A DNA stretch of 64,000 nt from Aquila chrysaetos chrysaetos. Lineage: Eukaryota > Chordata > Aves > Accipitriformes > Accipitridae. Made by a program: the position numbers and the translations under genes. Shown here piece after piece: positions 1 through 49,000 of the stretch. The stretch spans positions 28,178,858 through 28,242,857 of the forward strand of contig NC_044018.1 in assembly GCF_900496995.4 (NCBI RefSeq). Reading direction: 5' to 3'. The notes under the pieces were generated by a model, which saw nothing but the letters and a program-made list of their open reading frames with translations, had not been told where the DNA came from and did not search any database. Within the stretch, counting starts at the first letter, position 1; every line of letters begins with the position of its first letter.

Positions 1-3000
1 GGCAGCAGCTCTGGCCGGAGAGGGTCCATCTCGGGAGGTGGAGGAGGAGGAGGAGGAAGCTCAGGTCATGGAGGATTGAGCTCTGGCAGTGGCGGGTCCA
101 TCTGTGGAGGAGGAGGAGGAGGAAGCTCAGGCAGTGGAGGCTCCATGTCTGGAGGTGGCCACAGCTCTGGAGGATGGGGATCCAGCTCTGGCAGTGGCGG
201 ATGCAGCCCCCACAGTGGAGGGATGAGCTCTGGTGGGGGCAGCAGCTCTGGCCGGAGAGGGTCCATCTCGGGAGGTGGAGGAGGAGGAGGAGGAGGAAGC
301 TCAGGTCATGGAGGATTGAGCTCTGGCAGTGGCGGGTCCATTTCTGGTGGAGGAGGAGGAGGAAGCTCAGGCAGTGGAGGCTCCATGTCTGGAGGTGGCC
401 ACAGCTCTGGAGGATGGGGATCCAGCTCTGGCAGTGGCAGATGCAGCCCCCACAGTGGAGGGATGAGCTCTGGTGGGGGCAGCAGCACTGGCCGGAGAGG
501 GTCCATCTCGGGAGGTGGAGGAGGAGGAGGAGGAAGCTCAGGTCATGGAGGATTGAGCTCCGGCAGTGGCGGGTCCATCTGTGGAGGAGGAGGAGGAGGA
601 AGCTCAGGCAGTGGAGGCTCCATGTCTGGAGGTGGCCACAGCTCTGGAGGATGGGGATCCAGCTCTGGCAGTGGTGGGTCCATTTCTGGTGGAGGAGGAG
701 GAGGAAGCTCAGGCAGTGGAGGCTCCATGTCTGGAGGTGGCCACAGCTCTGGAGGATGGGGATCCAGCTCTGGCAGTGGCAGATGCAGCCCCCACAGTGG
801 AGGGATGAGCTCTGGTGGGGGCAGCAGCTCTGGCCGGAGAGGGTCCATCTCGGGAGGTGGAGGAGGAGGAGGAGGAAGCTCAGGTCATGGAGGATTGAGC
901 TCTGGCAGTGGCGGGTCCATCTGTGGAGGAGGAGGAGGAAGCTCAGGCAGTGGAGGCTCCATGTCTGGAGGTGGCCACAGCTCTGGAGGATGGGGATCCA
1001 GCTCTGGCAGTGGCAGATGCAGCCCCCACAGTGGAGGGATGAGCTCTGGTGGGGGCAGCAGCTCTGGCCGGAGAGGGTCCATCTCGGGAGGTGGAGGAGG
1101 AGGAGGAGGAAGCTCAGGTCATGGAGGATTGAGCTCTGGCAGTGGCGGGTCCATCTGTGGAGGAGGAGGAGGAGGAAGCTCAGGCAGTGGAGGCTCCCTG
1201 TCTGGAGGTGGCCACAGCTCTGGAGGATGGGGATCCAGCTCTGGCAGTGGTGGGTCCATTTCTGGTGGAGGAGGAAGCTCAGGCAGTGGAGGCTCCATGT
1301 CTGGAGGTGGCCACAGCTCTGGAGGATGGGGATCCAGCTCTGGCAGTGGCGGATGCAGCCCCCACAGTGGAGGGATGAGCTCTGGTGGGGGCAGCAGCTC
1401 TGGCCGGAGAGGGTCCATCTCGGGAGGTGGAGGAGGAGGAGGAGGAAGCTCAGATCATGGAGGATTGAGCTATGGCAGTGGCGGGTCCATCTGTGGAGGA
1501 GGAAGCTCAGGCAGTGGAGGCTCCCTGTCTGGAGGTGGCCACAGCTCTGGAGGATGGGGATCCAGCTCTGGCAGTGGTGGGTCCATTTCTGGTGGAGGAG
1601 GAAGCTCAGGCAGTGGAGGCTCCATGTCTGGAGGTGGCCACAGCTCTGGAGGATGGGGATCCAGCTCTGGCAGTGGCGGATGCAGCCCCCACAGTGGAGG
1701 GATGAGCTCTGGTGGGGGCAGCAGCTCTGGCCGGAGAGGGTCCATCTCGGGAGGTGGAGGAGGAGGAGGCGGAAGCTCAGGTCATGGAGGATTGAGCTCT
1801 GGCAGTGGCGGGTCCATCTGTGGAGGAGGAGGAGGAAGCTCAGGCAGTGGAGGCTCCATGTCTGGAGGTGGCCACAGCTCTGGAGGATGGGGATCCAGCT
1901 CTGGCAGTGGCAGATGCAGCCCCCACAGTGGAGGGATGAGCTCTGGTGGGGGCAGCAGCTCTGGCCGGAGAGGGTCCATCTCGGGAGGTGGAGGAGGAGG
2001 AGGAGGAAGCTCAGGTCATGGAGGATTGAGCTCTGGCAGTGGCGGGGTCCATCTGTGGAGGAGGAGGAGGAGGAAGCTCAGGCAGTGGAGGCTCCCTGTC
2101 TGGAGGTGGCCACAGCTCTGGAGGATGGGGATCCAGCTCTGGCAGTGGTGGGTCCATTTCTGGTGGAGGAGGAAGCTCAGGCAGTGGAGGCTCCATGTCT
2201 GGAGGTGGCCACAGCTCTGGAGGATGGGGATCCAGCTCTGGCAGTGGCGGATGCAGCCCCCACAGTGGAGGGATGAGCTCTGGTGGGGGCAGCAGCTCTG
2301 GCCGGAGAGGGTCCATCTCGGGAGGTGGAGGAGGAGGAGGAGGAAGCTCAGGTCATGGAGGATTGAGCTCTGGCAGTGGCGGGTCCATCTGTGGAGGAGG
2401 AGGAGGAGGAAGCTCAGGCAGTGGAGGCTCCCTGTCTGGAGGTGGCCACAGCTCTGGAGGATGGGGATCCAGCTCTGGCAGTGGTGGGTCCATTTCTGGT
2501 GGAGGAGGAGGAGGCTCAGGCAGTGGAGGCTCCATGTCTGGAGGTGGCCACAGCTCTGGAGGATGGGGATCCAGCTCTGGCAGTGGCGGGTCCATTTCTG
2601 GTGGAGGAGGAGGAGGAAGCTCAGGCAGTGGAGGCTCCATGTCTGGAGGTGGCCACAGCTCTGGAGGATGGGGATCCAGCTCTGGCAGTGGCGGATGCAG
2701 CCCCCACAGTGGAGGGATGAGCTCTGGTGGGGGCAGCAGCTCTGGCCGGAGAGGGTCCATCTCGGGAGGTGGAGGAGGAGGAGGAGGAAGCTCAGCTCAT
2801 GGAGGATTGAGCTCTGGCAGTGGCGGGTCCATCTGTGGAGGAGGAGGAGGAGGAAGCTCAGGCAGTGGAGGCTCCATGTCTGGAGGTGGCCACAGCTCTG
2901 GAGGATGGGGATCCAGCTCTGGCAGTGGTGGGTCCATTTCTGGTGGAGGAGGAGGAGGAAGCTCAGGCAGTGGAGGCTCCATGTCTGGAGGTGGCCACAG

Positions 3001-6000
3001 CTCTGGAGGATGGGGATCCAGCTCTGGCAGTGGCAGATGCAGCCCCCACAGTGGAGGGATGAGCTCTGGTGGGGGCAGCAGCTCTGGCCGGAGAGGGGTC
3101 CATCTCGGGAGGTGGAGGAGGAGGAGGAGGAAGCTCAGGTCATGGAGGATTGAGCTCTGGCAGTGGCGGGTCCATCTGTGGAGGAGGAGGAGGAAGCTCA
3201 GGCAGTGGAGGCTCCATGTCTGGAGGTGGCCACAGCTCTGGAGGATGGGGATCCAGCTCTGGCAGTGGCAGATGCAGCCCCCACAGTGGAGGGATGAGCT
3301 CTGGTGGGGGCAGCAGCTCTGGCCGGAGAGGGTCCATCTCGGGAGGTGGAGGAGGAGGAGGAGGAAGCTCAGGTCATGGAGGATTGAGCTCTGGCAGTGG
3401 CGGGTCCATCTGTGGAGGAGGAGGAGGAGGAAGCTCAGGCAGTGGAGGCTCCATGTCTGGAGGTGGCCACAGCTCTGGAGGATGGGGATCCAGCTCTGGC
3501 AGTGGTGGGTCCATTTCTGGTGGAGGAGGAGGAGGCTCAGGCAGTGGAGGCTCCATGTCTGGAGGTGGCCACAGCTCTGGAGGATGGGGATCCAGCTCTG
3601 GCAGTGGCAGATGCAGCCCCCACAGTGGAGGGATGAGCTCTGGTGGGGGCAGCAGCTCTGGCCGGAGAGGGTCCATCTCGGGAGGTGGAGGAGGAGGAGG
3701 AGGAAGCTCAGGTCATGGAGGATTGAGCTCTGGCAGTGGCGGGTCCATCTGTGGAGGAGGAGGAGGAGGAAGCTCAGGCAGTGGAGGCTCCATGTCTGGA
3801 GGTGGCCACAGCTCTGGAGGATGGGGATCCAGCTCTGGCAGTGGCGGGTCCATCTGTGGAGGAGGAGGAGGAGGAAGCTCAGGCAGTGGAGGCTCCATGT
3901 CTGGAGGTGGCCACAGCTCTGGAGGATGGGGATCCAGCTCTGGCAGTGGCGGATGCAGCCCCCACAGTGGAGGGATGAGCTCTGGTGGGGGCAGCAGCTC
4001 TGGCCGGAGAGGGTCCATCTCGGGAGGTGGAGGAGGAGGAGGAGGAAGCTCAGGTCATGGAGGATTGAGCTCTGGCAGTGGCGGGTCCATCTGTGGAGGA
4101 GGAGGAGGAGGAAGCTCAGGCAGTGGAGGCTCCATGTCTGGAGGTGGCCACAGCTCTGGAGGATGGGGATCCAGCTCTGGCAGTGGCGGGTCCATCTGTG
4201 GAGGAGGAGGAGGAAGCTCAGGCAGTGGAGGCTCCATGTCTGGAGGTGGCCACAGCTCTGGAGGATGGGGATCCAGCTCTGGCAGTGGCAGATGCAGCCC
4301 CCACAGTGGAGGGATGAGCTCTGGTGGGGGCAGCAGCTCTGGCCGGAGAGGGTCCATCTCGGGAGGTGGAGGAGGAGGAGGAGGAAGCTCAGGTCATGGA
4401 GGATTGAGCTCCGGCAGTGGCGGGTCCATCTGTGGAGGAGGAGGAGGAGGAAGCTCAGGCAGTGGAGGCTCCATGTCTGGAGGTGGCCACAGCTCTGGAG
4501 GATGGGGATCCAGCTCTGGCAGTGGTGGGTCCATTTCTGGTGGAGGAGGAGGAGGAAGCTCAGGCAGTGGAGGCTCCATGTCTGGAGGTGGCCACAGCTC
4601 TGGAGGATGGGGATCCAGCTCTGGCAGTGGCAGATGCAGCCCCCACAGTGGAGGGATGAGCTCTGGTGGGGGCAGCAGCTCTGGCCGGAGAGGGTCCATC
4701 TCGGGAGGTGGAGGAGGAGGAGGAGGAAGCTCAGGTCATGGAGGATTGAGCTCTGGCAGTGGCGGGTCCATCTGTGGAGGAGGAGGAGGAGGAAGCTCAG
4801 GCAGTGGAGGCTCCATGTCTGGAGGTGGCCACAGCTCTGGAGGATGGGGATCCAGCTCTGGCAGTGGTGGGTCCATTTCTGGTGGAGGAGGAGGAGGAAG
4901 CTCAGGCAGTGGAGGCTCCATGTCTGGAGGTGGCCACAGCTTTGGAGGATGGGGATCCAGCTCTGGCAGTGGCGGATGCAGCCCCCACAGTGGAGGGATG
5001 AGCTCTGGTGGGGGCAGCAGCTCTGGCCGGAGAGGGTCCATCTCGGGAGGTGGAGGAGGAGGAGGAGGAAGCTCAGGTCATGGAGGATTGAGCTCTGGCA
5101 GTGGCGGGTCCATCTGTGGAGGAGGAGGAGGAGGAATCTCAGGCAGTGGAGGCTCCATGTCTGGAGGTGGCCACAGCTCTGGAGGATGGGGATCCAGCTC
5201 TGGCAGTGGTGGGTCCATTTCTGGTGGAGGAGGAGGAGGAAGCTCAGGCAGTGGAGGCTCCATGTCTGGAGGTGGCCACAGCTCTGGAGGATGGGGATCC
5301 AGCTCTGGCAGTGGTGGGTCCATTTCTGGTGGAGGAGGAGGAGGAAGCTCAGGCAGTGGAGGCTCCATGTCTGGAGGTGGCCACAGCTCTGGAGGATGCG
5401 GATCCAGCTCTGGCAGTGGCGGATGCAGCCCCCACAGTGGAGGGATGAGCTCTGGTGGGGGCAGCAGCTCTGGCCGGAGAGGGTCCATCTCGGGAGGTGG
5501 AGGAGGAGGAGGAGGAAGCTCAGGTCATGGAGGATTGAGCTCTGGCAGTGGCGGGTCCATTTCTGGTGGAGGAGGAGGAGGCTCAGGCAGTGGAGGCTCC
5601 ATGTCTGGAGGTGGCCACAGCTCTGGAGGATGGGGATCCAGCTCTGGCAGTGGCAGATGCAGCCCCCACAGTGGAGGGATGAGCTCTGGTGGGGGCAGCA
5701 GCTCTGGCCGGAGAGGGTCCATCTCGGGAGGTGGAGGAGGAGGAGGAGGAAGCTCAGGTCATGGAGGATTGAGCTCTGGCAGTGGCGGGTCCATTTCTGG
5801 TGGAGGAGGAGGAGGAAGCTCAGGCAGTAGAGGCTCCATGTCTGGAGGTGGCCACAGCTCTGGAGGATGGGGATCCAGCTCTGGCAGTGGCAGATGCAGC
5901 CCCCACAGTGGAGGGATGAGCTCTGGTGGGGGCAGCAGCTCTGGCCGGAGAGGGTCCATCTCGGGAGGTGGAGGAGGAGGAGGAGGAAGCTCAGGTCATG

Positions 6001-6290
6001 GAGGATTGAGCTCTGGCAGTGGCGGGTCCATTTCTGGTGGAGGAGGAGGAGGAAGCTCAGGCAGTGGAGGCTCCATGTCTGGAGGTGGCCACAGCTCTGG
6101 AGGATGGGGATCCAGCTCTGGCAGTAGTGGGTCCATCTGTGGAGGAGGAGGAGGAAGCTCAGGCAGTGGAGGCTCCCTGTCTGGAGGTGGCCACAGCTCT
6201 GGAGGATGGGGATCCAGCTCTGGCAGTGGCAGATGCAGCCCCCACAGTGGAGGGATGAGCTCTGGTGGGGGCAGCAGCTCTGGCTGGAGA
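1..6290 (+). repeat. Higher-order coding tandem repeat (20 long units, about 35 inner cassettes)
   Basis: Each long unit begins with a GRRGSISGG-coding stretch, followed by a (GGA)n glycine run, SSGHGGLSSGSG, then one to three copies of an inner cassette of about 105 bp (35 residues) that contains GGHSSGGWGSSSGSG, and ends with CSPHSGGMSSGGGSSSG. Unit spacing is 234-240 bp with one cassette, 327-343 bp with two and 444-447 bp with three. All spacings are multiples of three except 337 and 343, which carry the two extra G bases. Units differ by only a few substitutions and by GGA copy number, including at silent positions, so the array is young or kept uniform by unequal exchange or gene conversion. 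Degeneration begins at the 21st partial unit near 6271. Confidence 0.95.
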
Positions 6291-6506
6291 GTGTCTAGCT
6301 CTGGATGTGGAGGAAGCTCAATCTCTCGAGGCATCGGATCGAGCCACGGTGGTATATGCAGGTCTGACAGTGGAGGGTATGGCTCTGTTTTTGGGTCTAG
6401 CTCTGGAGGAGAAGGGATTTATAGTGGTGAGAGCTGTGGAGCTGGTATATATAGTTGTGGAGATGGGCCTAGAGAATCCAGCTCTGAAGGAGGGTGGTCG
6501 TCTTGA
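1..6506 (+). CDS. 3' terminal coding exon of a giant Gly/Ser-repeat protein, probably the tail of a type II keratin (partial)
   Basis: The sequence is open in frame 1 from base 1 and continues to a TGA at 6504-6506 if two single extra G bases (in the G runs at 2044-2047 and 3095-3098) are allowed for. This gives about 2,167 residues of one exon. The product is mostly Gly and Ser with regular Trp, His, Met, Arg-Arg and Cys, arranged in 20 long units, then a non-repeat end of about 75 residues with four Cys, finishing GGWSS. No rod domain lies in the window. I infer a keratin tail from the position and strand at the head of a type II keratin cluster, and from resemblance to the glycine loops of epidermal keratins. 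Loricrin is less likely because Gln and Lys, its crosslinking residues, are almost absent. As read, the frame starting at base 1 would end at 3153. The exon start, rod and head lie upstream of the window. Confidence 0.6.
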
Positions 6507-8350
6507 GGGTGGGGTGTCAGTTTTACCTGTGGAAGTTGTTCAGGTTTTTCTGCAGGTGCTTCTTACCTATAATATTTACATTGCAGAGTCTTTCTATGGA
6601 ATGGGAAGAAGGCATTCCCTTTGGTATTAGAGGCAAGGGTGGCTTTTCTGCCCACCACTGGGTTACTGCTAGTTTGAACGTGTCACACAATTCCAAGCTC
6701 TTTTCTCCCTGCAGCCATCTCCTGAATTCTCCAGCCACACACCTCTTTTTTATGACAATATTGTGATGGTTGCTACTGTTTCCTTAGGCTTTCTCTGAGC
6801 ACTTCAACTCAGGCTGTTTGGAACCTTTGTCTTTGGCAACTAAAAGCTTGAAACCCTGCCTGTTGTGTGTGTATTGGTCTATGGGTGGGCACAAGCCTGA
6901 TGTGTATGATGAAGTTTTTGTAATAACTCTTTAAATATATAAATCAGTTTATGGAGATCTGATCCAACCTCAAGAAAAAATCAGTGATAAAGTGGAAGAA
7001 GGGGTTTACAAAAGAATGTCTGTTGTTGGGGGCCATAGGCTGAACATCTGCTGTGAAAATGGGTTCCAGGGGACAAGTCCTATTGGCCTAATCTAGCCAG
7101 TCAGCCAGGACCCATGGCCACATCTCAGTTCCATCATTCCCTCCAGGAGTCACTCATTAAAGAACCAGGGGACAGATCGAATAATCCATGTAGATTTTGT
7201 TAGCATTGCAGTTGCAGATAAAGGAGCAGAAAGTCTATGAACAACAATGTCTTAGCTTGCTTCTAGTCCCATTTTCCCCCCCTGGGGTCCCAAATCAAAA
7301 TTGGATGGTATGTAACCAAGTAAGCCTTTTTTGGCCATCTCATTCAATGGTCACTTCTATGCAGAGGAAGCAATATGTTTTCTAAATTTCTCACAGAACT
7401 TACTTTAAGTCCATTCAAAAGTTCTAATGAAGAGCAGAGAAGCTGACATTACCAGGAAAGTTTGTTTAAGAAGCTCAATGCAACTGTGTCACCTTCATTT
7501 AGCAACACTCCACTTAGATAACTGGAATGTCACAATCCCATCAGGAATATTTCATGTCTTTTGCCCAGTCGGAGGGAAGGTAGGATGTTCTTAACTGTTT
7601 TTCAAAGAAATCCAACTGTGAAGGGTCCTGGGGGTGGCAGCCAGTGAGTGAGATACTCAGCTTGGTGGGAAACCCACTGTGGAGACCCATTTGCAGATGG
7701 CCATAGAGCCATGAAAACAACTAGGGAAGGTTGACAGGGAGCCACAAAGGGCTAAATCAAACCTTTATAGTATAGTCTGGAAGCAGTTATGAGTACCCTT
7801 CATGTGGGGAGGTCTAGACACTGTATTTCAGTCAAAACTAGGTTATCACTGCCCTCATCAAATGCAGAAAGCCCCACGCAAGCTGTGAAGCAGTCAGCTG
7901 TGGTAGTGAAATCTGGAGATTGTGTTAGCAAACCCTGCTGAGATGAGCCTGTGTTTTCATCTGTGCTGGCTCGCATCCCACAGGTTCATTGTGTGGGTGG
8001 TATGAGTTTACCTTGGCTTGCAAAACGCCATGCACAGCTACCCTTCAATGGTGGGGACAGTTTATTCACCCTGTTAATGGCTGCTTCTACATCACTTGCT
8101 GAAACAGTTCAGTTCTTCAGGATCCAAGTGATAAATAAGCTGCATCATCACAACCCCATTTTTCATCTAAGAGATTAGGTAAGACTTTTCAATCAAGACA
8201 AAGCCTCCACTCTTACAATAAAAAGTGGAAGCTGTGAAAGGTAATTCTGCACACTACCAAGTACTGTTGGGCTTTAGTTTCATTGTTACAGGGTGCCTAG
8301 AGCTTCTCATCTCTAATCAGAAGAAATAAAGAATAATTATGAACACTGTG
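6507..8350 (+). other. Probable 3' untranslated region of the giant-tail gene
   Basis: No coding pattern is visible after the TGA. The best poly(A) signal is AATAAA at 8325-8330, followed by a GT-rich stretch from about 8348 (gtggtcagtctgtgggtttt). A weaker AATAAA lies at 8217-8222. A 3' UTR of about 1.8 kb is long but similar in scale to the distal sites of the other genes here. Confidence 0.45.
8325..8330 (+). terminator. Poly(A) signal for the giant-tail gene
   Basis: AATAAA with a GT/T-rich downstream element within about 30 bases. It is the strongest such combination between the stop at 6506 and the next gene. Confidence 0.5.
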
Positions 8351-12752: not shown

Positions 12753-15700
12753 ATGAGCCAGCAGCTGTCAGCTGGAAGGTCTTTTCATGGAAGAAAGTTC
12801 TTCTCATCATCTTCTGCTGCGAGTGGCATGAGCCAGTGCCGAAGCAGTGTTTTCCCCTCTGCTGTGCTATTTGGAAGAACTTATGAAGCCTGGAGACACA
12901 GCATCCAAAGCCTCCAAAACACAGATAGGTGCAAATGGATTTCTTCTGACCGAAGCCTCGCACAGAGGGTCTGTGGAGGCTGGAGGTGCAGGGGCATCCA
13001 TGCCAACAGTGAAGGTGGGAGTCACAGGTTAGGCTTCCACAGCAGGAGCTGCAAAAGTGAAGGTATTTGTGAAGTGCACGTCAGTGAAAGCCTGCTGCAG
13101 CCTCTTGATGTGAAGATCGACCCTGAAATCCAGCACATCCAAAAGCAGGACAGAGAGCAGATGAAGATCCTCAATAACCAGTTTGCCTCTTTGATTGACA
13201 AGGTGAGAGTTGAGACAAGACTTAAAGGAATGATGAGGTTTAAGTGTGAAGGAAACCTTTTTGTGCTCAGGTCTTCGATTCCTCTCCTCTCATCCTATTA
13301 CATGAGCTGTATGCTGGTTTTAGCATGTGTGACTCCAGTACTATGAGCTGCAAATGCAGATCTAGCTGATAATGTTATTTTAATCTGGTTTATGTGCTTA
13401 TGTGCTTTGATAAGCTGCATCTGTTTTTATTATTCATAGTGAAAGGGAGCTGTTCCTCCAAGGTATCTTACTGAGCTTCTGCACTGTTGACTTCTCTCTG
13501 TGCAGCTAGACTTTGTAAAGTTGCATTGTCTCCTATCGGTAAACGTGGTTTCCACTATCAGCCATTTGATATGCAGATTTATTTGAATATTCCATGGTTT
13601 CTGTAGCTGCCACAAAGGCTGTACTGTCTAGGGCTTACTTGGAGAATGGGAGAGCAGCATGCCTAGTTTGCTCTAGGATTATAGGATTAGGAAGACTGCA
13701 ATGCCCCCCTTTTGTCCTCTCATCCCCTTCAAACCACAATGAACCCCTGAAGCATTGACTCAGAAGATGCCTTGGCCCCCCCCCCCATTCCTTTGGTCCC
13801 CATACAATACAGCTAAGCATGTGCCTGAAGAAGGTGGCTTTGCTTTCTGAATGCAGGTACAGCATCTGGAGCAACAGAACAGGGTGCTGGCCACCAAATG
13901 GGACCTACTGCAAAAGCAGGTTCTGCCATCCCAGAAGAACACCAAGCATGTCTTCGACAACTTCATTTGCAGCCTGCAGAGGTGGCTGGACTCACTGCTG
14001 CGCGAGCAGGGGCAGATGGAACCTGAGCTGAATGACACAGAGAAGCTCGTTGAAGAGTTCAGGTGCAAGTGAGTGAGCAGAAACCATCCACAGGGCAGTG
14101 AGCTCAAACAGCTTGTCTAATGGGACTTGAATTTTTGTCTGTATTGATAGACTTCTCTCTGAGGTCCAGAAAGCTGAGATCCAAAAGCACCCTGACCCCT
14201 AAACACTCAGACAAACAAGGTCTCTGGTCTCAGAATGACCCAGTAACCAGTCTTTTCTCTTCTGCAACAGATACAAGCAGGAAGTGAGCAGACACACGGC
14301 TGCTGAGAACGAGTTTGTGTTATTGAAGAAGGTAAGGAATTAGTATGAATGGAAGGGTTGGATGCAGAGATCCAAGGACTTTCCTCTGATCTGCTCCTTG
14401 CAAAGCAAGGGTCAGGTCTTGAGAATGTTAAAAGTCATTGGACAAGTATGGATACAGAAAAACATGTCACAGAGTATTGCCAGAGAGCATTACACCTCTG
14501 CCCTTTAGCACAGAAAGGACATTTCATTCTAAACTGACAGCTTTCTAGTCCTAATGCCCAAGTCATGATGTCTTTCAAGCAAGAACTCAGCAATATTGTA
14601 TATGCTTTTGGGACCTCTCAGCTGTTGCTGTTCAGGGGAAATCTGAGCTTCCCAATGACTTTTCCTAAACAAAATTTCCTACCCTAAAAATATAATTACA
14701 TTGCCTTAGGTCTCTGTGTAGGTACCATTTTGACTTCTAACTGTCTGGAAACTCTTTTAGGATGTGGACTGTGTCTATCTGGCCAAGGCAGAGCTGGAAG
14801 CAAAGGTGGAAACCCTAAAGCAGGAGATAGAGTTCCTGAAATGTGTTTCTGCTCAGGTATGGATGCTCCTGTCCCAACCTTGCTTGATGGCAGCTATTCC
14901 TACCAGCTGCTTCTTGACTTAGGCCTGATTAAGCCAATCCATCTGGCTCTCTTTGGGAGGCAATAAGAATCCCAGATAAGGAAGATTTTGTGATCTCGAA
15001 AACCCCAAACCCTCAAGCTGCATGTGTGACCAAATCTAGTCTCCAATCCTGGGCTGTGGCTCAGGTCAGACTCTTAGTGGTGGTGTTACTTCCACTGGAG
15101 TGTGAGATAAGAAATCCAGGGACAGAGACATACTGACACCTTACTGCCACTAACACATGGCTTCTAGGAAATCGCTGAGCTGGAGAGAAGTCCCTGTGAC
15201 ACCTCTGCCATTGTGAAAATGGACAACAGCCGAGGCCTGGACATGCAGGGCATCCTCAGGAGTGCTGAGTGTTGTTATGAGGACATAGCTCAGAAAAGCA
15301 AAGCAGTGTTGGATGTGCTGTACAGAACTAGGGTAAGTTGTAGCATCCAGTGACATATCCTTAATTCTCTCACTGTCAAAAGTAGTAGTGCAAAGGTGGT
15401 GATTTTTTCTTTCTGTCTTCACTGTATAACTTCTGGACCTAATTGTCCATTCTGCTAAAATCTGTAAGTCTCAAAGTCAGGAGAACATCCCCAGACCAGA
15501 TACAATGCAATGGGACAAGACTCAGTCATGCTGGGAAGGCTGTAGGTGGGAGGTTGTAGGTGAGTTGAGCAGTGAAAACTACAGGAGGAAAGCTCCATTT
15601 GCTGCTCAAAGTCTCAGGAGCTGCAAAGTCATGAGACTTTTCTAAACCTAGTTTAATTCACTCTGGAAAGAGAAGCAAGGCTTCTATACTAGGTACACTA

Positions 15701-17500
15701 CCAGCATTAATTGCCAGGTCTCTCTTTTCTTACTATCAGTTCCAAGAGCTGGAGGAGGCAAAGGGGAGAGATTGCAATGAACTGAAGTCCCACCAGCAAG
15801 AGATTGAAGAGCTGAGTTTTGTGATCCAGAGAAGGCAGTGTGACCTTGAAAATGTGAAGAAGCAGGTATGATGGATCATATTTACTCACTGGATCCTAGG
15901 TGTAAGATTCCAAGTCACGTTTTCTACATCTCTGTGGCATTTCTTTCATCTTTATAAGAAGCATTGCCTCACACTGCTTCCATTGGTCTAGAGAAGATCC
16001 TACCAGCGCTGAGTGGGGAATAAGGATTATCTGCTGGCCTATTTACTGTTGGATCATTTTGATTATTGCAAAGAACTAATTGCAGGAAATTAGATCATTG
16101 GATTAGCTACAGCCACTCGGAAAATTGCTAAAATTGCTCCAGCAAGAATTCTGGCAGGAGGCAATGCTTCTGACACAGGTTCAAAGCATCCAATAAGTAG
16201 GGTAGAATTATGACTCACCAGTAATTCAGCACCCATAGAAACTGGTATAATTTTCAGACCATCTAATTCATTATATAGTTTATAACGGGAAGTAATGGAA
16301 AACCTTAATTATTAGTTCCAATTAGAACAAGGTATTGGTATCCTTGAAACAAGACTTAAACATAGTCTGGCAGTACAGGGACATGTCCAGCCTTTCTGTA
16401 GTACTTCAGAATTGATATTTGATTTTGGAAACATTTGGCTTTCCTAAAAAGAACCCCAATACTTCCCAATTTTAGACTCTCAAAAAAAAGTGAGAATTTC
16501 TCTTTCAAGGATAAGGATGGCAAGAAAGAGGGCAGGGAAAGTAACGACTTCTTGTGTCTCCCCTGACAGGTGTCCTCTCTGCAAACATCAGTTTGTGAGA
16601 CTGAGCAGCGCAGGGACTGTGCCCTCAAACACATCCAGGAGAAGCACGTTGAGCTGCAGGATGCCCTCCAGAAGGCCAAGGATGAGTTGGATTTCATGCT
16701 GCGGGATTACCAGGAGCTGCTGAATGTCAAGCTGGCCCTGGATATCAAGATAGCAACATATAAGACCCTACTGGAGGCTGAAGAGAGCAGGTGGGTACCA
16801 CTACAACCATGTATGGGCAGCGTTCAGTCCTTGGGACTCTTTGGCAGAGACAAGGAGGCTGGAAAATGCTAGAAATGCTAGGTATGTGAAGGATAACCTT
16901 GTGACCTTCTTCTCCTTCAGGATACGCCTTGGGAGCCCTGTGAAAGTGTGTAAGTAAGCTCCAGGTTTTCTGTTTTCCTTACAACATTAAACAGTCTAGT
17001 TCTGGTTTGCAGGGGGAGGAGGAAGGCTGAATCCTGCCCATGAGTGATTCCACCTGTGTTTTCCCATGACAGTGATCACCACCCCTTGCAACAACATCTC
17101 TGGCTGCGAAGCCAACCTGGGATGTGGATCTGGTAGACAGGCCAGAAGATGCAAGTCCTCCTGTAGTGCTGGTAGAGCATCCCTACCCAAAGATGCTAGT
17201 GCCTGCCACAGAGGATTCACTTCCAGAAGCGTTGCCAGCTCTGTAGGCAAGCAGTATATCTCTGGTGGTCCCAGCTGCATCCCTAGGAGTGAAGAATTTA
17301 GGGCCAGAGGTGGGGGCCATTCGTGCCAGAGCTCAGCCCCTCTGGGCACTGGTGGACTGTGCAGTAGGACTGCAGGGAGCTGTGGAGAGAGCTGCAGAGC
17401 TGCAAAGAGCATGGGAAACTCAGCTCACCCACAAGGGATGTGTTGGCCAGGGGTGAGGATTTCAGCTGGACCTCCATGCCCCAGGGCCACCCGGATCTAA
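12753..17500 (+). CDS. Cysteine-rich type II keratin, diverged (gene B)
   Basis: Forms the type II half of keratin heterodimers in the cytoskeleton. Nine exons: 12753-13202, 13857-14068, 14271-14331, 14761-14856, 15168-15332, 15740-15865, 16570-16790, 16921-16949 and 17073-17500; 595 codons with no break. Exon lengths of 61, 96, 165, 126 and 221 nt and their phases are those of type II keratins. The rod runs from about residue 137 (helix start [19 protein letters not shown]) to 446 (helix end [18 protein letters not shown]). The head has six Cys and the tail 13, as in hair-type keratins. The head has lost most of the Gly-loop and SRS motifs kept in C and E. The helix-end motif has Lys for the usual Glu (LDIE) and Ala for Gly (LEGEE). 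The frame and splice sites are intact, so it is probably expressed, but it is under weaker or altered constraint. Confidence 0.88.
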
Positions 17501-23216: not shown

Positions 23217-26200
23217 ATGAGCAGACAGGCGCCTACAGTGAGATCTGTCCTGGGACGAAGAGGCTTCAGTTCAGCTTCGGAGATTTGTGGTCGAAGCTAC
23301 GCTGCCTCTGCCTGCCAACCTGTCCGATGTGGAGCTGGTGCCTATAGCAGCAGGAGTGTCTGCAACCTGGGTGGAAACAGGAGAATTTCCTACGTGAATG
23401 GAGTCTGCGGTACTGGATGTCTTGGAGAGTTCGGCTTTGGAGGTGTAGGCTACGGTAGTGTTGGAGGAAGGGTTGGCCTTTGTGGCCCCAGGGGATATAG
23501 TATTGTGAGAGGTTACCCTGATCGCAAAGCTGATGGCATCCAAGGTATCTGCATCGATGAACGGCTTCTGAAGCCCCTCTGCGTTGGGGTCGACCCGCTG
23601 GAACATGAAATACGCTGTCAGGAGAAGGAACAGATCAAGACACTCAACACCCAATTTGCCTGCTTCATCGACAAGGTGAGTGCAAACCTGCTCTGTACTT
23701 GCACTTCTTTGAGAAAAATAAAACACAACGAAACCCCTCCAAAACCCCAGTCCAGCTGATGCCATGAATCACTGAGCTGGGTCCAAGCAAGGGTCCAGAT
23801 TCCCACAGAGCCATGTTGGTTCAGACTGGGATCTTCAGTACTGGGGAAGGGCTCATTTCAGCCACATGCCAGTCCTAGTATTTGCTGGTGTTTGTATCGT
23901 GGCCACAGTAGCACTGGACTTTCTTGCAGGTGTATCCTCTCTGGACAGCCTCGGTTCAAGGTTGGATTTCTCATGGCAGCCTTGTTCTAGCTCAGCTAGA
24001 AGTTACAGCCCTGATGGGGTCATCTTTCCATCCTCCATTAGACCCTTTTCCCCCTTTTGTCTTTAAATATAGCGACTGTTCCAAAAAACATTTCTGAAGG
24101 CAAAGGAGGTTAATCTTGATTCAGGCACCTAAACCTTAGATATCTAAGTCTGAGCTGTCACTTAGGATCCCTTTGTAGAAAAAACAGAGACAAACAGGTT
24201 CTACCCTCTGGGGACTCAATCTCATCCTAAAATACATCAGAGGCACCATCCAGAGGAGCCTTATTTCTATTCATTGGTGAGAAAGGCAGATTTAGACATG
24301 TGACTTTTAGATTTCTAAATAATTTAGACATGTGACTTTTAGATTTCTAAATAAGGGCAGATAATTTTATGATCATCGTGGCATATCACCTCTCACTTCC
24401 TGAAAATCCAATTCTTCCACCTGCAGTTTCACAGTGAGAGCAGACAGTTAAACCAGATGTCGAGTTATTGCATTCATCTTTTTATTTGAAGAATTGCTAT
24501 TTTCTGGCCTGCAGGTCCGATTCCTGGAGCAGCAGAACAAAGTGCTGGAGACCAAGTGGGGCCTCCTGCAGCAATACGTCCTACCAAAGAAAGGGAAAAA
24601 CCTTGAACTGTACTTTGAGAATTACATCTGCGACCTGCGGAAGCGCCTGGACTGCTTGCTATGTGAAAAGCAAAAACTGGGCAGCGAAGAATGTGCCACA
24701 AGCCAGCTGGTGGAGGAGTTCAAGTGCAAGTAAGGACCTTCAGGTCTCCTCTAGCTCTTGGCATTTCAATTCTCCTCTGGTTCATCTCAGGCAACATCTC
24801 CCAGACATGTGGCACATCCCCTTTGGGGATGTCACATTCTTCTGTCTCACTTGCAAACTCTTTGCATTGTTAATGTTGTTGTTCATGAAGAAGCTTCTGA
24901 TCTTGGGATGGTCTAATGTTTGGTCTCCAGACACTGATCTTACAGTGCCTGATGGCAGTCTCTGAGCAAGCTAAGGTTGTTATTTATACGTGATGGTTAA
25001 TGTCTGTGTGTCTGATAGTATTGCTTGCCTCAGCCCTTTTCTTCTCCTTTTCCAACAGATATGAAGAGGAAATCAACAGGCGTACAACTGTGGAGAATGA
25101 GTTTGTGGCACTCAAAAAGGTGAGAAGCTCAAAATACATGAATCGTTATACCTAAAATAGTTTTATTTGGTGTAAAGCTTGGTTGAAAAAGTGCATTATT
25201 AGGAAATGCCCAGCAAAAGTGTTATAATGTGCAGAAGGAGAGAGGCTTGTAAAGAGGCACACGGTTAGAAAAAGAGGCAAATGCAAGTAGAAAGTAAAAA
25301 TAATGTATCCTCAAAGCTTACATCATCAGCACTACAGCAATAGTTTTGTTACCCCAAGCACATTCTTGAAGCATAATGGGAAGGTGCATTTGTGGAAGGG
25401 GGACAGAGTAGGAGAGGTCACACTGGAATACCTGGTGTCTAAGACGCTGGTTATTTTCTGACTCTCTCTTCACATACTTTATACTTGGACATCAGAAAAG
25501 CAGAAATCATTTGAACAATATTAAAAAATTATGTTTAAATACTCATTAGTCAATTCTGAGTTTGTAGCTAGGTCCTAAGTAATAAATAAACTAATCCCTG
25601 TAAGTCACGTTGGAATGGTTTTGTTTTCCTTTAGGAGACACCAGGGCATCTTGACTCACCCTCTCGCACCTTTCTGCTCTTGAAATCTTGTTGAAACATG
25701 TTTCTGTTTTATTGGCACTACCTCTGTCTTCTGTGTGTTTCTCCAATGTTTTCAGCGAGATTGGGCTGGAACGTATCTCCTCTCTTTCAGGATGCAGACT
25801 GCATCTTTTTGAACAAGGAAGAGCTGGAGGTGAAGGTGGATCTGTTAAGAAGGCAGTTGGAGTTGCTGAAATGTGTGTTTGAGGAGGTGAGTTTCTCTGG
25901 TCTGTCCCAGGAGTTTGGTGGTGCTGTCTCATCCTTCAGGTGCTCCAAATTTCTACAGCTTGAAACCCTTCTTTGACATGTCTCATCCCAAGCCCTGAAT
26001 ACTTGAAAGCATGGAAGTATAAGGTTGATACAATATTAACATGATTATGCTGGAAATAGGGTGGCTCCCCCTTTCTTAATGCAGCTCCAGGTATGAATTG
26101 GCTGTGTCCCAACTCTACCCCTGAGAAAAGAGATGCATCTGTCTAGTTACTCCGGATTGCAGTTGTCTGATTAGAGCTAAAGAAACTCCCAGCTTAATCC

Positions 26201-28708
26201 TGTCATTAACATCAGTAAAGCAGCTGAAGATGACAGGATACCAAGGGTTAAGTCACTCAAATTCCTTGCCCTTGATGTGGACAGAATTGCTGCAGGTCAG
26301 CATGTAGGTCAGCAGCTGACATGTGGCAACTCATCCAGCAGGGAGGATTTTCTGCTGAGCCAACCTGAGGGACATTTCTTGACTTGTTATATCCATCAGC
26401 CGAGCAGCGTGGCTCTTTGGCCCAGCCCTTCCTTCACTATAAAGTCTGAGAATTGCTAACAGCTGACTAAGCCATTCCCCAACCCGTAGGAACGAGCTCA
26501 GGTAGATCGCCAGCTATGCGACACTTCAGTCATCGTGAAAATGGACAACAACCGAGACCTGGACATGGAAAGCATCATCAAGAATGTTGAATGCTGGTAC
26601 CAAGAAATAGCTCAGAAGAGCAAAGAAGAAGTTGATGCTTTCTACCAAACCAGGGTGAGTAAGAAGCAACCTGGCTGTCTGCCTGGCAACTTAACAGGCT
26701 GCAGGTCAAAAACGATGATTGTCTTGTTTCTTGGTTCCAGTTTCAGGAGCTTCAGGATAAGAGAGGCAAGTATTGCGATGATCTGCAAAACAACAAGTGT
26801 GAGATTTCAGAGCTAACCCGGATGATACAGAAGCTGCAGTGTGAACTGGAGAACGTGAAGAAGCAGGTAGGAGAGGCCCAGAGGCGATGTTTCCAGAAAG
26901 GGCAATGTCTTGGAGGACAGCTCAGATATGGGGGAAGATGACGCATTGGCCTTTAGTAGTCTTAAGACCTGCCCTAGGCTGTAGTTGGAAAGTGTATTGT
27001 TGAAAAGTGGATAGAGAGAAGGGAAGCTGGTGGTTTTTTCTCTGTTTGCAATTGGAAGAGCAGATTAATCCAAAACCAGAATGTCCAGGAATTAGGAAAT
27101 GAAGCCTTGAAGACACGTGCACTGTTATCCTCCCCTCTGACAGGTGTCCTGCCTGCAAACCTCCATTTGTGACGTTGAGCAGCGTGGGGATTGTGCTCTC
27201 AAAGATGCCCGGGAGAAGCACGTTGAGCTACAGAATGCCCTCCAGAAGGCCAAGGATGAGCTGGCTTGCATGCTGCGGGATTACCAGGAGCTGCTGAATG
27301 TCAAGCTGGCCCTGGATATCGAGATAGCAACGTATAAGACTCTACTGGAGGGTGAAGAGAGCAGGTGGGTGACAGAGACCTTGTCCCTTTTCTCCTGTAT
27401 ATCAGAGTCTGGAACGATTCCAGCTCCCAAGTGAATTTTGCAGCTCCAGGATCCTTCCAGGCTCACAGAAACTGGGGCTGGAGAGATGGCTGGAGGCCAT
27501 ACAGGCCACCCTTTTGCCAGCAAAAACAATTCCTGTCCTAGGGATAGTCAGACTTGTTAAAACAAGGGATTAAGTGGGCTGGTTGTACAGCTGGAAGTTA
27601 TGAGTAACGTCAGGTTTCTAGATGTGCATGCAACTGGTTAATAGGATAACGTGCATTTCTCTTATCTCCCCTAACAGGATATGTGTGGGGAACCCGGTGA
27701 GCGTGTGTAAGTAACCTGAAGATTTACAGCCGTGAGGGTTTCTCATTTTAGGAAAGACAGCTTATGGAGTAACATTACCTGTCTGCCCCAGCCCCCTCTG
27801 CTTCTGCCTCCCTTTCCATTTCAGACCAGGCTGATGTTGAAGGTTTAGTCCCAGAAATCTCAAATACCTCTGAATTTCAAAAAAATTGGCTTTTGGATGG
27901 AGGGGGAGAAGGTCAAATTCATGACCCTTTTCTACTCTTGGAGGCAACAGTGAGCTGCCCTGGTGAACCCGCCAGGCAATGCACTGATGTGCATTGAACC
28001 TGGGAAAGAATATGCCACCAGCCAGATGAGCCGCCTGGGAACCGGGAGAAACTGTGAGGGGATGTGTTGGGACATGGGGGAGGAGTTGGAAGGAGCAGGG
28101 GCTCAAATATGTTGGACAAATCTAGAGGAAATCAGGTTTGGTCAGTTCTGTCACTCATGAAACAACTTGCCTTGTGAGAGTGTTCCAGTTTTCCTCTCTA
28201 AATAATTAATCCCATGGGCTGTCTTGCAGCTGTGGTCAGCAGTGGCTACAATATCCCCGATGACTGCGGGATGCTGGCTGCAAACGGGGCTGTGTGTGGC
28301 TACGGCTCCCTGGGGAGACGGTCCGGACGACACAGCTCCCAGAATGGAGGATTCAGCTCCCGGAGCGCTGGGCTCCACCCCAAGAGAGTCATTAGCTCGG
28401 TGGCCAAGCAGTGTGTCCCAGAGGTGTATTGCCAAGCCGGAGGGGTCAACTGCAAAAATGGGGGATTCAGCTCCCGGAGCGGGGGGTACCCAGCCCGCAC
28501 CGTCATCAGCACGGGAAATGGGGGCTTGAATGCTAGGATGGGGCCTTGCCAAGCTGGTGGGGTGGTCAGCTTCGGAAACCAAGGCTGCGTCATCAGGCAG
28601 CTGGGGGGCTCTCCTGTTGTCGTTGCAAACAGCCCTGAAGTTGTGGGGTGCAACAACGGCGTGGTGGGGAACTTCGGGGTTGTCAGAGACCCATGCGTTG
28701 TTCCATAG
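23217..28708 (+). CDS. Cysteine-rich (hair-keratin-like) type II keratin (gene C)
   Basis: Nine exons: 23217-23675, 24515-24729, 25059-25119, 25791-25886, 26490-26654, 26741-26866, 27144-27364, 27678-27706 and 28230-28708; 616 codons, stop TAG. The start ATG (GCCACGATGA) begins the usual MSRQ. The rod runs from about residue 140 ([19 protein letters not shown]) to 450 ([18 protein letters not shown]), both ends canonical. The head (about 139 residues) contains [10 protein letters not shown] and about ten Cys, including PLCVGVDP, as in hair-type type II keratins. The tail has nine Cys and no terminal Lys/Ser block. Two NGGFSSRS motifs in the tail repeat a head motif. Likely role: a disulfide-crosslinked filament protein of hard cornified tissue, paired with a type I keratin. 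I give no one-to-one mammalian symbol because the sauropsid copies appear to be lineage duplicates. Confidence 0.93.
24291..24354. repeat. Perfect 32-bp tandem duplication in intron 1 of gene C
   Basis: The unit from 24291 (TTTAGACATGTGACTTTTAG then ATTTCTAAATAA) is repeated exactly from 24323. It lies inside an intron, 160 bp before exon 2, away from the splice sites. Confidence 0.9.
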
Positions 28709-43028: not shown

Positions 43029-46000
43029 ATGAGTCGACAGTGTTACACCTCCAGCTCTCTCCTGGGAAGACGGGGCTTTTCCTCCGCGTCCGCCGTCTGC
43101 GGCCTCGGCAGGGGCAACAGCAGCTCGGCCTCCGTCTGCCAGCCGGTGGGACGGAGATGTGGAATTGGTGGCTTCAGCAGCCGGAGCGTCTGCGACCTGG
43201 GGAGAGGGCAAAGGATTTCCTTCGGTGGGAGCTGCCGCAGTGGGGTCTACGGCGGCGCTGGCGTCGGACGTTGCGGCGTGGCTTACGGCGGAGGCCGCTT
43301 TGGCGTGGGCACGGTCGTAGGGTTTGGTAACTGCGGAAGCTACGGGGGCCTGGGCAGCTACAGAGGTCTCGGGGACGGCGTGGCTATCGGAGGCTACGGT
43401 GGCGGCATTGGCATCGGCCTCGGCGGAGGTAGATCCGAAGGGATTCGGGGCGTCAGCATCCACCCGGAGCTCCTCAAGCCCCTCTGCGTGGGGGTCGACC
43501 CTGAGGAGTGCCAAGTGCGGACCCATGAGAAAGAGCAAATCAAGAATCTCAACAACCAGTTCGCCTGCTTCATTGACAAGGTGAGACCCTGATTCCCTCT
43601 GCGCAGGCTGCTTGTCTCATGTCTCTAGGCTCTGATGGATGGATTGTCTCTAGAGAGGCAATGTCGGTAGCTATTTCTCCTGGCACCCTGATATTGTAAA
43701 TGTTTCTGATAGACCATGGTGGTCCTGACCTGGAGACTGTTTGGATTTAAGCCTTGCACCAAGGCAACTGCACCAGTATTGCACCTTTCGATGGTCACCA
43801 GTCTGCTAAATAGCTAAATCAGGAGTGGCTCCGGGGATACAGTAAATCAAAACCTGTGAGAGAAGGGATGGAGACACGGAAATCTAAAAAGGCGAAATAG
43901 GAAGTTTCATTACAAATGTATAATCTGACATTGCTATCGCATCTCTATAAACTCCAAAGGACTTTGGCATTTTTAAAATAGTTTGTGTGCTTCATCAAGG
44001 AGATGTAGAAAGATAGATGTCTAGCTAAAATGAGATGAACAATTTTAACCTCTCTGTCCCTCCACTCTGTGAATGAAATGATTTGGTGATTTCCTAAACA
44101 GATGTAATTTATCATTGTTTCCTTAGCTAAGCCTAAGGGTTTTCATTACTGTTTAGAGATGTGTTATAGGAAATGATTTTTCAAATGGCAGAGAAACCTT
44201 TGCTCTGTCTGATCTTGATTTTCCTCGTGAGTTGTGCAGCTGGAAAAACCAAACCCACGTAAAAGGAGCAACTCCGCTTCCTCCCATTTGAAAAATGACT
44301 TATTCATGATGCATAAAGGTTCTCAAGTACTAGAGAGCTCTTTAATCTAGAAGTGAAAGGCATGATAAATATCCGTGGTTAAAGTTTAAATCAGATACAT
44401 TCAAATGAGATCCTGGATGGAGCTTTTAGTGCTCCAGAAGACTCATTAAGGTCCTCAGCCCGTCAGGGGAGGCAGTGGATCCTCCATCAGCCAGTTATCA
44501 GGGGAAGAGGTGGTGTTTGGCTGAATGGAGCTTTGGTCAAACAGATGATTGGCCTCAACACAGAGCAAACACACCAATGTTGTTCAGCCTGTGATATGAG
44601 TCCTGGGTGGGACCAGGTTTAGCTCAGAGAAGATGCTGGTCTCACTCAGGCTGCTGAGAAATCAGCACTTAACCATTTGCATTTCTGATTTTATTTTTAC
44701 TTTTTCCTTTTGGAAGTGGAGAAGCCCAAAGCGCTTTTGCCTGGGACAAGAGGGGATTGTATGACTCTCACATCTCTTGCTTCCCCAGGTCCGGCTGCTG
44801 GAGCAGCAGAACAAGGTGCTGACCACCAAGTGGGAGCTGCTGCAGCAGTATGTCCTCCCAGCTTCCAGGAGAAACCTGGAGCCCGTTTTCGAGAACTTCA
44901 TCTGCAACCTGAGGAAGCAGCTGGAGTGTGTGCTGGGGGAGCGAGAGAGGCTGGAAAATGAGGAGCGGTGCCTCAGGGACCTGGTTCAAGAGTACAAGTG
45001 CAAGTAAGTACTATGCAGAGAGAAGCTGCAGACGGCAGTATTTGCTGGCCTGAGCGGTGTTTCTGAGCGTGAAGCCAACACACTTGCACCAGATAGGTCC
45101 AAAAACTGGGGTACAGGGAGGGAGGCAGAGCAGGGTACACCAGTACTGGGCTGGTTTCCTGTACTGGAGTCCCACTGCTGCACCTCAGATGCTGGTGATA
45201 GACTGGGAGAGCTCTTCAACCACAGTGTTTCCTTAGGGAGAGGGACAGGGAACCACTCTCCCTCTCCCTAATGCTCCTGCACACTGTCGTGGTTTGCCAT
45301 ATCAAATCTCCCACATCATCTGTGCCTGTGGCTCCCCCACATCTCATGTCCCCGGTGCCATCTGTTCCCACAAAACCCTCAGCCTATTTGTCTCCAGCCC
45401 ACGCTTTATCCACATCGTCTCCGCTGGGGTTCGTTCTCTCTTCCCAGAGGGAATGTGGGAATTGGCTTTTTAATCTAAGCTGCAGATATTCCTTAATAGC
45501 TCCCCGTGTGCTCTGCTAAGCCATGAACCAGGACACTTTGTGGCTGGTGGTACACAGCACAGGATAAAAGAGTAATCCTTTCTCCAGAGATTATACAGTC
45601 AAGTATCTCAGACGTTTTTTTTTTTTCTCGCTGAGCCACCACCGAGGAGGTCAGACTCAGAATCATAGAATCATATTGTGAAAGCTCTAGGTCCCAATTA
45701 CTTGGTCATTATGCACTGGCTTTTCTTCCTATTGCACCTGTGAGTGTCAAAGGTTGCTCAAGCTCCTGACCTCCCTTGGGGCATTTTGGCCACAGTCTCC
45801 CCATAAACACTCAGCGCAGAGTCCTGGATGCTTCAGAAAAACATCACACAAAGCAGCAGGGCTAGAAGAAGCAATCCCAGCCTTCAGCTGAGTTACAGGG
45901 TTTTGCATTTCTAGTGGTTTGGCCTGATTTACTGCCATCTCACTCCAGCCACCGATACTGCTGGCGTGGACTATTTAAAACTGCTGAACAAAGCCCATTG

Positions 46001-49000
46001 GGGAGGAAAGAAATAGCAACAAAGCAAAAATCAAAAAGGAGGTACAAAGTGAATAGGGAGAGGCTCTGGTTTTAATCACGCTTCCCATTTTCTGCACTGG
46101 ACACTTGGGTGGTGGGGATGGGACCCCCGGGGCTCAGCATCCCATCCCTCTCCTTTCCTCCTGCAGATATGAAGATGAGATCAACAAGCGTACAGCTGCG
46201 GAGAATGAGTTTGTGGTCCTCAAGAAGGTGAGTCACACTAGGGACAACGTCGGCAAGACCAGCTGAGAGTGGCAGACGTGTGGGCAAAACCTGGGCATGG
46301 GGCCGGGGAGAGAACTGGGGAGTCCTGGCACCATGACACTGCCTGAGTTCTCATCAAGTAGCCCCAAAATAGAGGCAACCCAATGAATTTGGAGAACCCC
46401 TATCAGGTTAGCATGTTAGCATGTACAATGCAAACCCAGATAGTCTTAAGGGCTGGAGATAGTGAGGTTTCCTGCAAATCTAACAGAAAACATGGGCTTT
46501 GCCACAGTCCTTGTTTCTTCACCTCTTTTCACCAAATATGTGGTGTCTCTCCAGGATGTGGACTGTCTTTACCTGACCAAGGAGGAGCTGGAGGTGAGAG
46601 TGGGCCTTCTGCGGCAGCAGCTGGAGTTCCTGAAGTGCATCTACGCCGAGGTAAGAGCTCCCGGCTCCTGCTCTGCTGCCCCTGCGACGATGCATCATCT
46701 GCTGCCACCCTGAGCTCTTACAAAACTAAATGCGGGGAAAGGTGTCTTTTCTGAAAATTCTGAAACTGCATCCCAAAAATCTATATCTCTTTATATGTAT
46801 TTAATAACAACACTATTGCACACACTTCAGGAAGGCAAAGGGAGTCCTTGGTTATCTCCTGTATTGCTGGCTGCAAAGGGAGGAATCTTTTGCATGAAAA
46901 AGCCCCTCAAATTCTAATCCAAACCATCCCTGGGAACCACTGAGACATCTTACTCTTCAAAACCCAGAGATTTTTAGTGCTTCACTTTTTAAGCTACATT
47001 AGTCAAAATATTCTGGTGAAAGTTAACACTTTTGTCTAAAATGTAGCAAGTTTTTAACAAAACACACAGGGGACACTTTATATTTGCACCTTTTCTAGCC
47101 ATACAGCTCCCAGCAGTCTGTAGGCAATGGGGCCCAAAGCGCTCACCCCTGAGGGATTCACAGCCCAGAAAACTGCTGACACAGCCAAAAATGCTGAGTT
47201 GCAGTGAAGCAACTTGCTCCACCAGGATTCCCCACCCTTCCTTAGGGAATTGCATGCAGCAATCCCATGTTGTGCCACCAAAACAAGTCCCAGCTGCCAG
47301 CTCTTGCTGGAAACCAGTCACCCACCTGGAGAACCACATGCTCTAGTTGGGTGTTAATGGGAGAACCTCCCCCAACCCTCCACCTTCTCACCAGGCCCCT
47401 CTTTGCCAGGGGTACTGGCATGCCTGGCTTGGGCTGGTTGAGGGAAGGGGACTGACATACGATGGATCTTGCAGGAGAGAGCTCAGCTGGATTGCCAGCT
47501 GTGTGACACCTCTGTGATCGTGCAAATGGACAACAGCCGGGACCTGGACATGGAGGGCATCATCAAAAGTGTTGAGTGCTGCTACGAGGAGATTGCCCAG
47601 AAGAGCAAGGCTGAAGTGGAGGCTTTCTACCAAACCAGGGTGAGTACTCACACCACCAGCACAGATGGCAATGAAATCCCTTGGCCAACAAAACTCTGAG
47701 GACCATTTCTGTCCTCCATGACGCAACTTAAAGCCACTCCAAAGAGTGCATGCACTGTAGTTTGCTAAAGAGAGTCATGCCAAAAACCCCATCCCAACCT
47801 TAAAACTGTGGTTTGAGACTTTTCTGTAAAAACAGACCACAGCAGATCACAGTCTTGCTTCAGAGAGGTCTCCTCTGTGCACACCTGTCAGCAACACCAT
47901 CCTCTTCCCAAGGGGCAAATGCTTAGGACCTACCTCAGACTGTTGCCTTGGCTGGGCTGAGGTCATGTCTGGGTGCTTCCCCGGGAGCACCAACGTCAGT
48001 GCGGCTTCAGAGAGTCACCACCTTCCCTGGAAGGGGCGATTCAGGTGCATTAACGTCATCCTTTTTCTGCGCAATAGCTGGAGGAGCTCCACAGCAGCAG
48101 GGGCAAGTTCTGTGATGACCTGAGGAACAACCAGAGTGAGATAGCCGAGCTGAACCGGATGATCCAGAAGCTGCAGTGCGAGTCGGATAACGTGAAGAAA
48201 CAGGTAGGACAAAGGGTTGAATGTTGCATGGGCAGTGGGGCGTTCAACTTCTCCAGCAAAGGGTTTCATCCTCACCAGCTCCCACCGTGTTGGGCTGCAA
48301 AGAACCCCCCCGCCCCAGCTTATGCCTATATTTGTAGCTTCCCATCTGCTGTCGATACACAAAGAAGCAGATTTATTTCTCACTTAGCAAATAAGCAGAA
48401 GCCAGTTGGTCTGGCTATAACAGAAACGGTGTTTGCTGTATGCTTCCTATCGGGGTGCAGCCAACAGGTGCCCTCCCCTTCATCCCAAACAGCTTAGCCA
48501 TCATGTGTCTAGCCTAAATCTAGGCTCTCTGGCATTTCCTAGCTGAGAAACAAGGGTGTACATGAGCAACCCTGCAGAGATGCCTCTTAATATCACCACT
48601 GTCAACCCTCTTGCCCGTTAATGTCCACAGATTGCAGCTCTGCAAACGGCCATCTGTGATGCTGAGCAGCGGGGCGACTGTGCCCTCAAAGATGCCCGGC
48701 AGAAGCTGATCGACCTGCAGACTGCACTGCAGCAAGCCAAGGACAAGATGGCATGTTTGCTGAGAGACTACCAGGAGCTGCTGAACGTCAAGCTGGCCCT
48801 GGACATTGAGATTGCCACTTACAGAACACTACTGGAAGGAGAAGAGAGCAGGTAGGCGCATCCCTGGCTGCACCTTGTAATGACAGCTGGTGAAACCCCA
48901 CAGGAGGGGAGAGAGGCGGTAAGAAATGCTGGGTGGACGTAGCTCCCCATGGGTGCAGAGGGGAGCATCACCCTTTTTCTCCCTATTGGTACAGAAGGGA

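Follow-up and report, generated by a model that had tools for sequence, protein, structure and literature searches.

A glycine- and serine-rich repeat of the eagle keratin cluster as the probable terminal exon of the long-tailed keratin KRT78LT

The repetitive DNA at the start of the analysed eagle window (64,000 nucleotides, C15:28178858-28242857; positions without the C15 prefix are counted within the window) is probably the terminal exon of KRT78LT, a keratin whose rod would lie in filaments and whose tail would serve as an elastic matrix and disulfide cross-linker. The gene is a real one of a known kind, with a tail longer than the published minimum. KRT78LT (K78 long tail) has been reported by Ehrlich et al. 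(MBE, PMC7086170) as a K78-like keratin of the American alligator, "conserved in archosaurs", with a tail that exceeds 1,700 residues and contains over 50 cysteines, 66 for the alligator according to a figure legend. In that work, the gene borders the HBS cluster at the end opposite to a KRT5-like gene, mammalian K78 is named as a relative of the HBS keratins, and premature stops are recorded in the chicken and Chinese alligator assemblies. A beak proteome study (PMC12821399) describes KRT78LT as strongly enriched in the chicken embryonic beak in relation to the egg tooth, and its authors regard it as a largely uncharacterized protein whose tissue distribution has yet to be established. The preliminary description of this stretch had proposed a possibly undescribed structural protein, a claim that fails because KRT78LT is described in these two papers (PMC7086170, PMC12821399). 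In the searched open-access literature, the names K78LT and KRT78LT were found in no other paper, a search for the largest, giant or longest keratin gave nothing relevant, and the literature on other long-tailed keratins offered, for the tails, only the filament cross-linker hypothesis.

In the window, the forward strand from 1 to 6506 is a near-continuous Gly/Ser repeat with regular Trp, His and Cys. As had been noticed earlier, and as the frame reading bears out, the repeat is already underway at base 1. Frame reading, unit analysis and the upstream gene model together define this segment as the in-window part of a KRT78LT-type exon 9. The whole exon covers C15:28176369-28185363 (8,995 nt) and begins 2,489 bases 5' of the window. 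Within the window the array can be divided into 20 whole higher-order units, each 234-447 nt long, after which come one incomplete unit and a short stretch of unique sequence. Each unit combines a Gly-rich module, which bears a Trp/His motif, with a Cys-Ser-Pro-His module, a typical one reading GSSSGRRGSIS(G)8SSGHGGLSSGSGGSICGGGGGGSSGSGGSMSGGGHSSGGWGSSSGSG[G/R]CSPHSGGMSSGG; the longer units carry one or two additional copies of the Trp/His module. The array sequence was matched on C15 only, with at least 32 matches, in a search of the genome (1,233,704,830 bases in 144 contigs).

The repeat gives way to a non-repeat C-terminal tail end of about 70 residues (6285..6506, + strand, from the frame reading), which closes with the stop TGA at 6504-6506. 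Pfam searches returned no families at E<=1, either for 6270-6503 or for the third frame segment at 3099-6503. A candidate ATTAAA at 7156..7161 (+), the sole AATAAA/ATTAAA in 6501-8000, is a possible poly(A) signal. A tRNA scan for lineage-specific SINEs gave 0 genes. Open stretches of the minus strand, such as one of 1,165 codons at 6294-2800, were considered as an antisense gene and judged to be by-products of the repeat.

The rod was sought by tblastn in the 40 kb upstream of the window with a human K5 rod sequence, and keratin matches were counted above 26 bits (above 28 bits in the search for neighbouring genes). A type II rod lies directly 5' of the array on the same strand. Its eight exons, all on the + strand, are located at C15:28170632-28171225 (exon 1, 594 nt), C15:28172616-28172833 (exon 2, 218 nt), C15:28173463-28173523 (exon 3, 61 nt), C15:28174147-28174242 (exon 4, 96 nt), C15:28174602-28174766 (exon 5, 165 nt), C15:28174852-28174977 (exon 6, 126 nt), C15:28175285-28175505 (exon 7, 221 nt) and C15:28175701-28175729 (exon 8, 29 nt). 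They have AG..GT borders and no stops, and encode 503 residues of head and rod. The protein matches Pfam Filament over positions 1-313 of 313 (E=2e-90) and Keratin_2_head (E=9.5e-21), and the highest-ranking of 30 PDB sequence matches belong to vimentin and to type II keratins 1 and 5. The nine-exon pattern of a type II keratin is thus present, with the internal sizes of 61, 96, 165, 126 and 221 nt that also occur in the four neighbouring genes inside the window. The preliminary description had predicted precisely these sizes and a short exon 8 upstream, within a normal intron distance; the complete head and rod, the 29-nt exon 8 and an intron of 639 bp before the repeat exon are what was found.

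Between exon 8 and the repeat there are four AG sites with a strong pyrimidine tract. When joined to exons 1-8, three of these acceptors lead to a stop after 2, 2 and 8 residues, while the acceptor at C15:28176369 alone stays open, for 1,880 residues, and enters the frame of the repeat. The case for the predicted gene rests on its rod, its splice phase and its position.

Read piecewise across two frameshifts, the tail encoded by the whole exon 9 comprises 2,996 residues, in which 29 unit starts were counted and 28 units are whole, and is about six times longer than head plus rod. The earlier expectation of a tail that dwarfs its rod is borne out, with roughly 3,000 residues set against 503. 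Over 2,995 residues the tail has 48.0% Gly and 33.7% Ser, with 106 His, 80 Arg, 60 Cys and 49 Trp; Lys occurs twice and Gln once, at tail positions 21, 24 and 110. In the third frame segment, 19 of the 24 gaps between successive cysteines span 32-94 residues. That segment, 1,135 residues long, contains no Lys, and its seven longest tryptic peptides measure 94-148 residues, so that a digest with trypsin by itself would leave most of the tail undetected. The whole protein on the same piecewise reading would have 3,499 residues, about 299 kDa and 67 cysteines.

The window part alone, also read piecewise, gives 2,166 residues (48.1% Gly, 33.9% Ser, 76 His, 44 Cys, 36 Trp). The single open frame of about 2,167 residues first put forward for this terminal exon is ruled out by two frame changes: the repeat starts in frame 0, passes to frame 1 at about 2040 and to frame 2 at about 3094, and keeps the latter until the stop at 6504-6506. 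Both changes coincide with an additional G in a run of G, as site counts indicate. The first, at 2044..2047 (+), turns GGC-GGG into GGC-GGGG; of the 32 equivalent sites that follow GGCAGTGGC in the whole array, 31 have GGG and this one has GGGG (1 of 23 within the window). The second, at 3095..3098 (+), turns GAGA-GGG into GAGA-GGGG, and here CGGAGA is followed by GGG at 27 of 28 sites of the whole array and by GGGG at one (1 of 20 within the window). By comparison, the constant G runs of the whole array are invariant, those of four in 47 of 47 cases and those of five in 29 of 29. Apart from one edit, the unit with the first shift is the same as the unit at 1054, and the unit with the second shift is the same as that at 820. 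So close a match to intact units means that neither frameshift is old.

A literal reading of the assembly, begun at the rod, meets its first stop (TGA) at 3151..3153 (+) and yields a protein of 2,383 residues. Its tail would have 1,880 residues, of which 1,510 are in frame and about 370 are out of frame and rich in Arg and Trp. The longest literal open stretch that reaches the final stop has 1,147 codons (3063-6503). Programmed frameshifting at both sites was judged out, GGG being read in frame in identical contexts 31 and 27 times. The extra bases would fit recent or artificial insertions, as far as the comparison of units goes, and base-calling or assembly errors, or an individual allele, are more likely than old decay. 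An additional G in a run of G is a common error type of single-molecule reads.

The open frame of the repeat was also considered as a trace of selection. The lengths of 26 of the 28 units are divisible by three, which could result from slippage of GGA codons alone. In a codon-position test on the first modules of 20 window units, no signal of purifying selection was found: variable columns fell at codon positions 1, 2 and 3 in the ratio 5/4/4, and one of the five is likely an artefact of gap placement. A long open frame is expected even without selection because the units are so alike. With few variable places and no third-position bias, the open frame is therefore weak evidence for selection.

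The repeat exon opens onto a row of keratin genes that are all on the + strand, in the order long-tail gene, HBS3, HBS2, HBS1 and K5-like. The HBS3-type gene (12753..17500, nine-exon model, 595 aa) has 30 Cys and matches the chicken primer HBS3-s at 20 of 20 bases; the HBS2-type gene (23217..28708, nine-exon model, 616 aa) has 37 Cys and matches HBS2-s at 20 of 20; and the HBS1-type gene (43029..49841, nine-exon model, 619 aa) has 35 Cys and matches a chicken HBS1 antiserum peptide at 15 of 19 residues, located at 49638, the next best match being 8 of 19. All three are Cys-rich type II keratins and exceed the 20 cysteines by which HBS keratins are recognized. The K5-like type II gene (54334..59177, nine-exon model, 697 aa, 3 Cys) was identified by keratin match and gene model. 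Position, direction and neighbours of the long-tail gene agree with the published layout of KRT78LT, and none of the six neighbouring keratin models has a stop in exons 1-7.

Ten published chicken primers, eight of them for keratins, were compared with these genes. HBS2-s and HBS3-s each match perfectly within a single gene. HBS1-s matches the gene at 43 kb at 20 of 20 bases, yet the K5-like gene at 19 of 20, so it does not discriminate between them. HBS2-a (2 mismatches) and K5-s (3 mismatches) fit the expected gene best, and HBS3-a is closer to HBS1 (1 mismatch) than to HBS3 (5). HBS1-a, K5-a and two caspase primers had no match within five mismatches. As a control, the best match of 20 shuffled primers had five mismatches (7 of 20), the others having more.

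Some features of the neighbouring genes were noted in passing. The head of the HBS3-type gene (12753-13202) is open, lacks the head motifs of HBS1 and HBS2 (SSRSVC, RRIS/QRIS) and looks scrambled, and its rod is the most diverged among the three HBS rods. A 32-bp unit is perfectly duplicated in the first intron of the HBS2-type gene (24290-24354), and the tail exon of the K5-like gene holds a tandem 30-nt repeat of 5.5 copies (58764-58927). Further upstream, two tandem type II keratin genes (C15:28141821-28146000 and 28150747-28155000) have rods that are 98% identical and differ in head and tail lengths. Their tails are ordinary, they bear a K78-like label by position only, and their rods share 66-70% of residues with K5 rods and 49-59% with HBS rods. 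Between this pair and KRT78LT lie two degenerate, isolated fragments of keratin rod (C15:28158127-28158339 and 28161037-28161171), which are probably the remains of a lost gene.

Kinship was assessed with a tree of eight rods, each represented by the last 40 residues of exon 1 and exons 2-7 (the K5 probe by 330 residues), heads and tails being left out. HBS1-3 form a clade with a support of 100. In the same tree, which was built without any K78 of known identity, the long-tail rod has a long branch (0.61) and no resolved sister, with pairwise identities of 43-53% to the remaining seven. The long-tail gene and HBS1-3 have in common an exon 8 of 29 nt (C15:28175701-28175729 in the former; 16921-16949, 27678-27706 and 49312-49340 in HBS3, HBS2 and HBS1), whereas this exon has 35 nt in the K5-like gene and, as a candidate, in the two upstream genes. 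The 29-nt exon may be a shared derived trait, and this coincidence weakly suggests a common origin of the long-tail gene and the HBS genes.

Two other explanations concern the gene itself. The array could be a separate gene or non-coding satellite DNA that follows a keratin rod by chance, as might be supposed from a window that by itself contains no rod for it and from repeat variation without codon-position bias. This is extremely unlikely, since exon 8 and the sole frame-keeping acceptor yield exactly the repeat frame and the published gene at this place, KRT78LT, is itself a keratin with a very long tail (PMC7086170). It is also improbable, though less strikingly so, that the frameshifts are real and that the locus is a young pseudogene or encodes a truncated protein, its tail in frame for 1,510 residues and out of frame for about 370 more. 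Two independent single-base insertions in one exon, a literal ORF of 2,383 aa and a repeat without purifying signal would agree with such an outcome, as would the premature stops reported for the assemblies of chicken and Chinese alligator (PMC7086170), given which decay in several lineages is possible. However, both changes are of the type that single-molecule reads commonly introduce and both lie in a highly repetitive stretch; the head, the rod and their splice sites are intact, the C-terminal end remains open past the second shift, and the otherwise perfect match of each shifted unit to an intact one shows that neither is old. Moreover, KRT78LT protein has been detected in chicken beak despite the stops earlier reported in the chicken assembly (PMC12821399, PMC7086170).

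With an intact KRT78LT as the preferred reading, the question becomes how its tail would work. The rod would pair with a type I keratin and enter the intermediate filaments of cornifying cells, and the tail would stay disordered and project from the filament. Its roughly 60 cysteines could link it by disulfides to other tails, to the Cys-rich HBS keratins of the adjacent genes and to further corneous proteins, which would make the tail a built-in elastic matrix and cross-linker; its length probably changes by unequal exchange among near-identical units. Transglutaminase cross-links would play little part, because the tail is nearly without Lys and Gln. In PMC11816140, with reference to Parry and Winter 2021, long repeat tails of sauropsid keratins are put forward as cross-linkers of filaments. 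This, together with the recurrence of cysteines along a tail encoded beside a cluster of Cys-rich HBS keratins, stands against a different role for the same gene product. In that role the tail would condense, in the manner of loricrin or trichohyalin, into a Trp/His/Gly matrix held by weak contacts, and disulfide tethering would be minor. This is unlikely, but it draws on the composition of the tail, in which Gly makes up 48% and Ser 34% and the 60 Cys are set beside 106 His and 49 Trp, and on the "glycine loops" anchored on large residues that have been proposed for such tails (PMC8072682). Most likely, then, the rod joins filaments and the Cys-bearing, nearly Lys- and Gln-free tail would tether them through disulfides.

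The near absence of Lys and Gln gives a directly testable prediction, namely that the tail is cross-linked by disulfides rather than by transglutaminase. The 9-kb tail exon, contiguous and accompanied by its rod, its splice sites and the structure of its units, also provides a template for long-read and proteomic work on KRT78LT. This would be a filament protein with a matrix of its own; it is little covered in the literature searched, and premature stops have been reported for it in some assemblies. More tentatively, and with some doubt, we suggest that the eagle may have an intact keratin of this type, which at about 3,500 residues and about 299 kDa would possibly be the largest on record and would unite filament and matrix in one polypeptide. 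The length of such a tail, set by how many near-identical units it has, could evolve and could adjust the stiffness of beak or claw horn from species to species.

Among known systems, mouse K78 also has a long Gly-rich tail, the mammalian K78 tail being much smaller than that of the eagle. The KRT78LT of the alligator is, like the eagle gene, a type II keratin beside the HBS cluster with an unusually long, Cys-containing tail. The eagle tail of about 2,996 residues, read piecewise across two frameshifts, compares with a published description of more than 1,700, and the 67 cysteines of the whole eagle protein compare with 66 in the alligator legend, a similarity that may be chance. Set against the published lower limits of 1,700 residues and 50 cysteines, the piecewise eagle reading gives 2,996 residues and 67 cysteines in all, and the literal one 1,880 residues, about 370 of them out of frame. 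Premature stops are common to the literal eagle assembly and to some assemblies in which KRT78LT was reported. The chicken KRT78LT shares with the eagle gene its name and its class, in a bird. Finally, the common wall lizard has a long-tailed "potential keratin filament crosslinker" (Parry and Winter 2021, as summarised in PMC11816140), with an unusually long repetitive tail as in the eagle gene.
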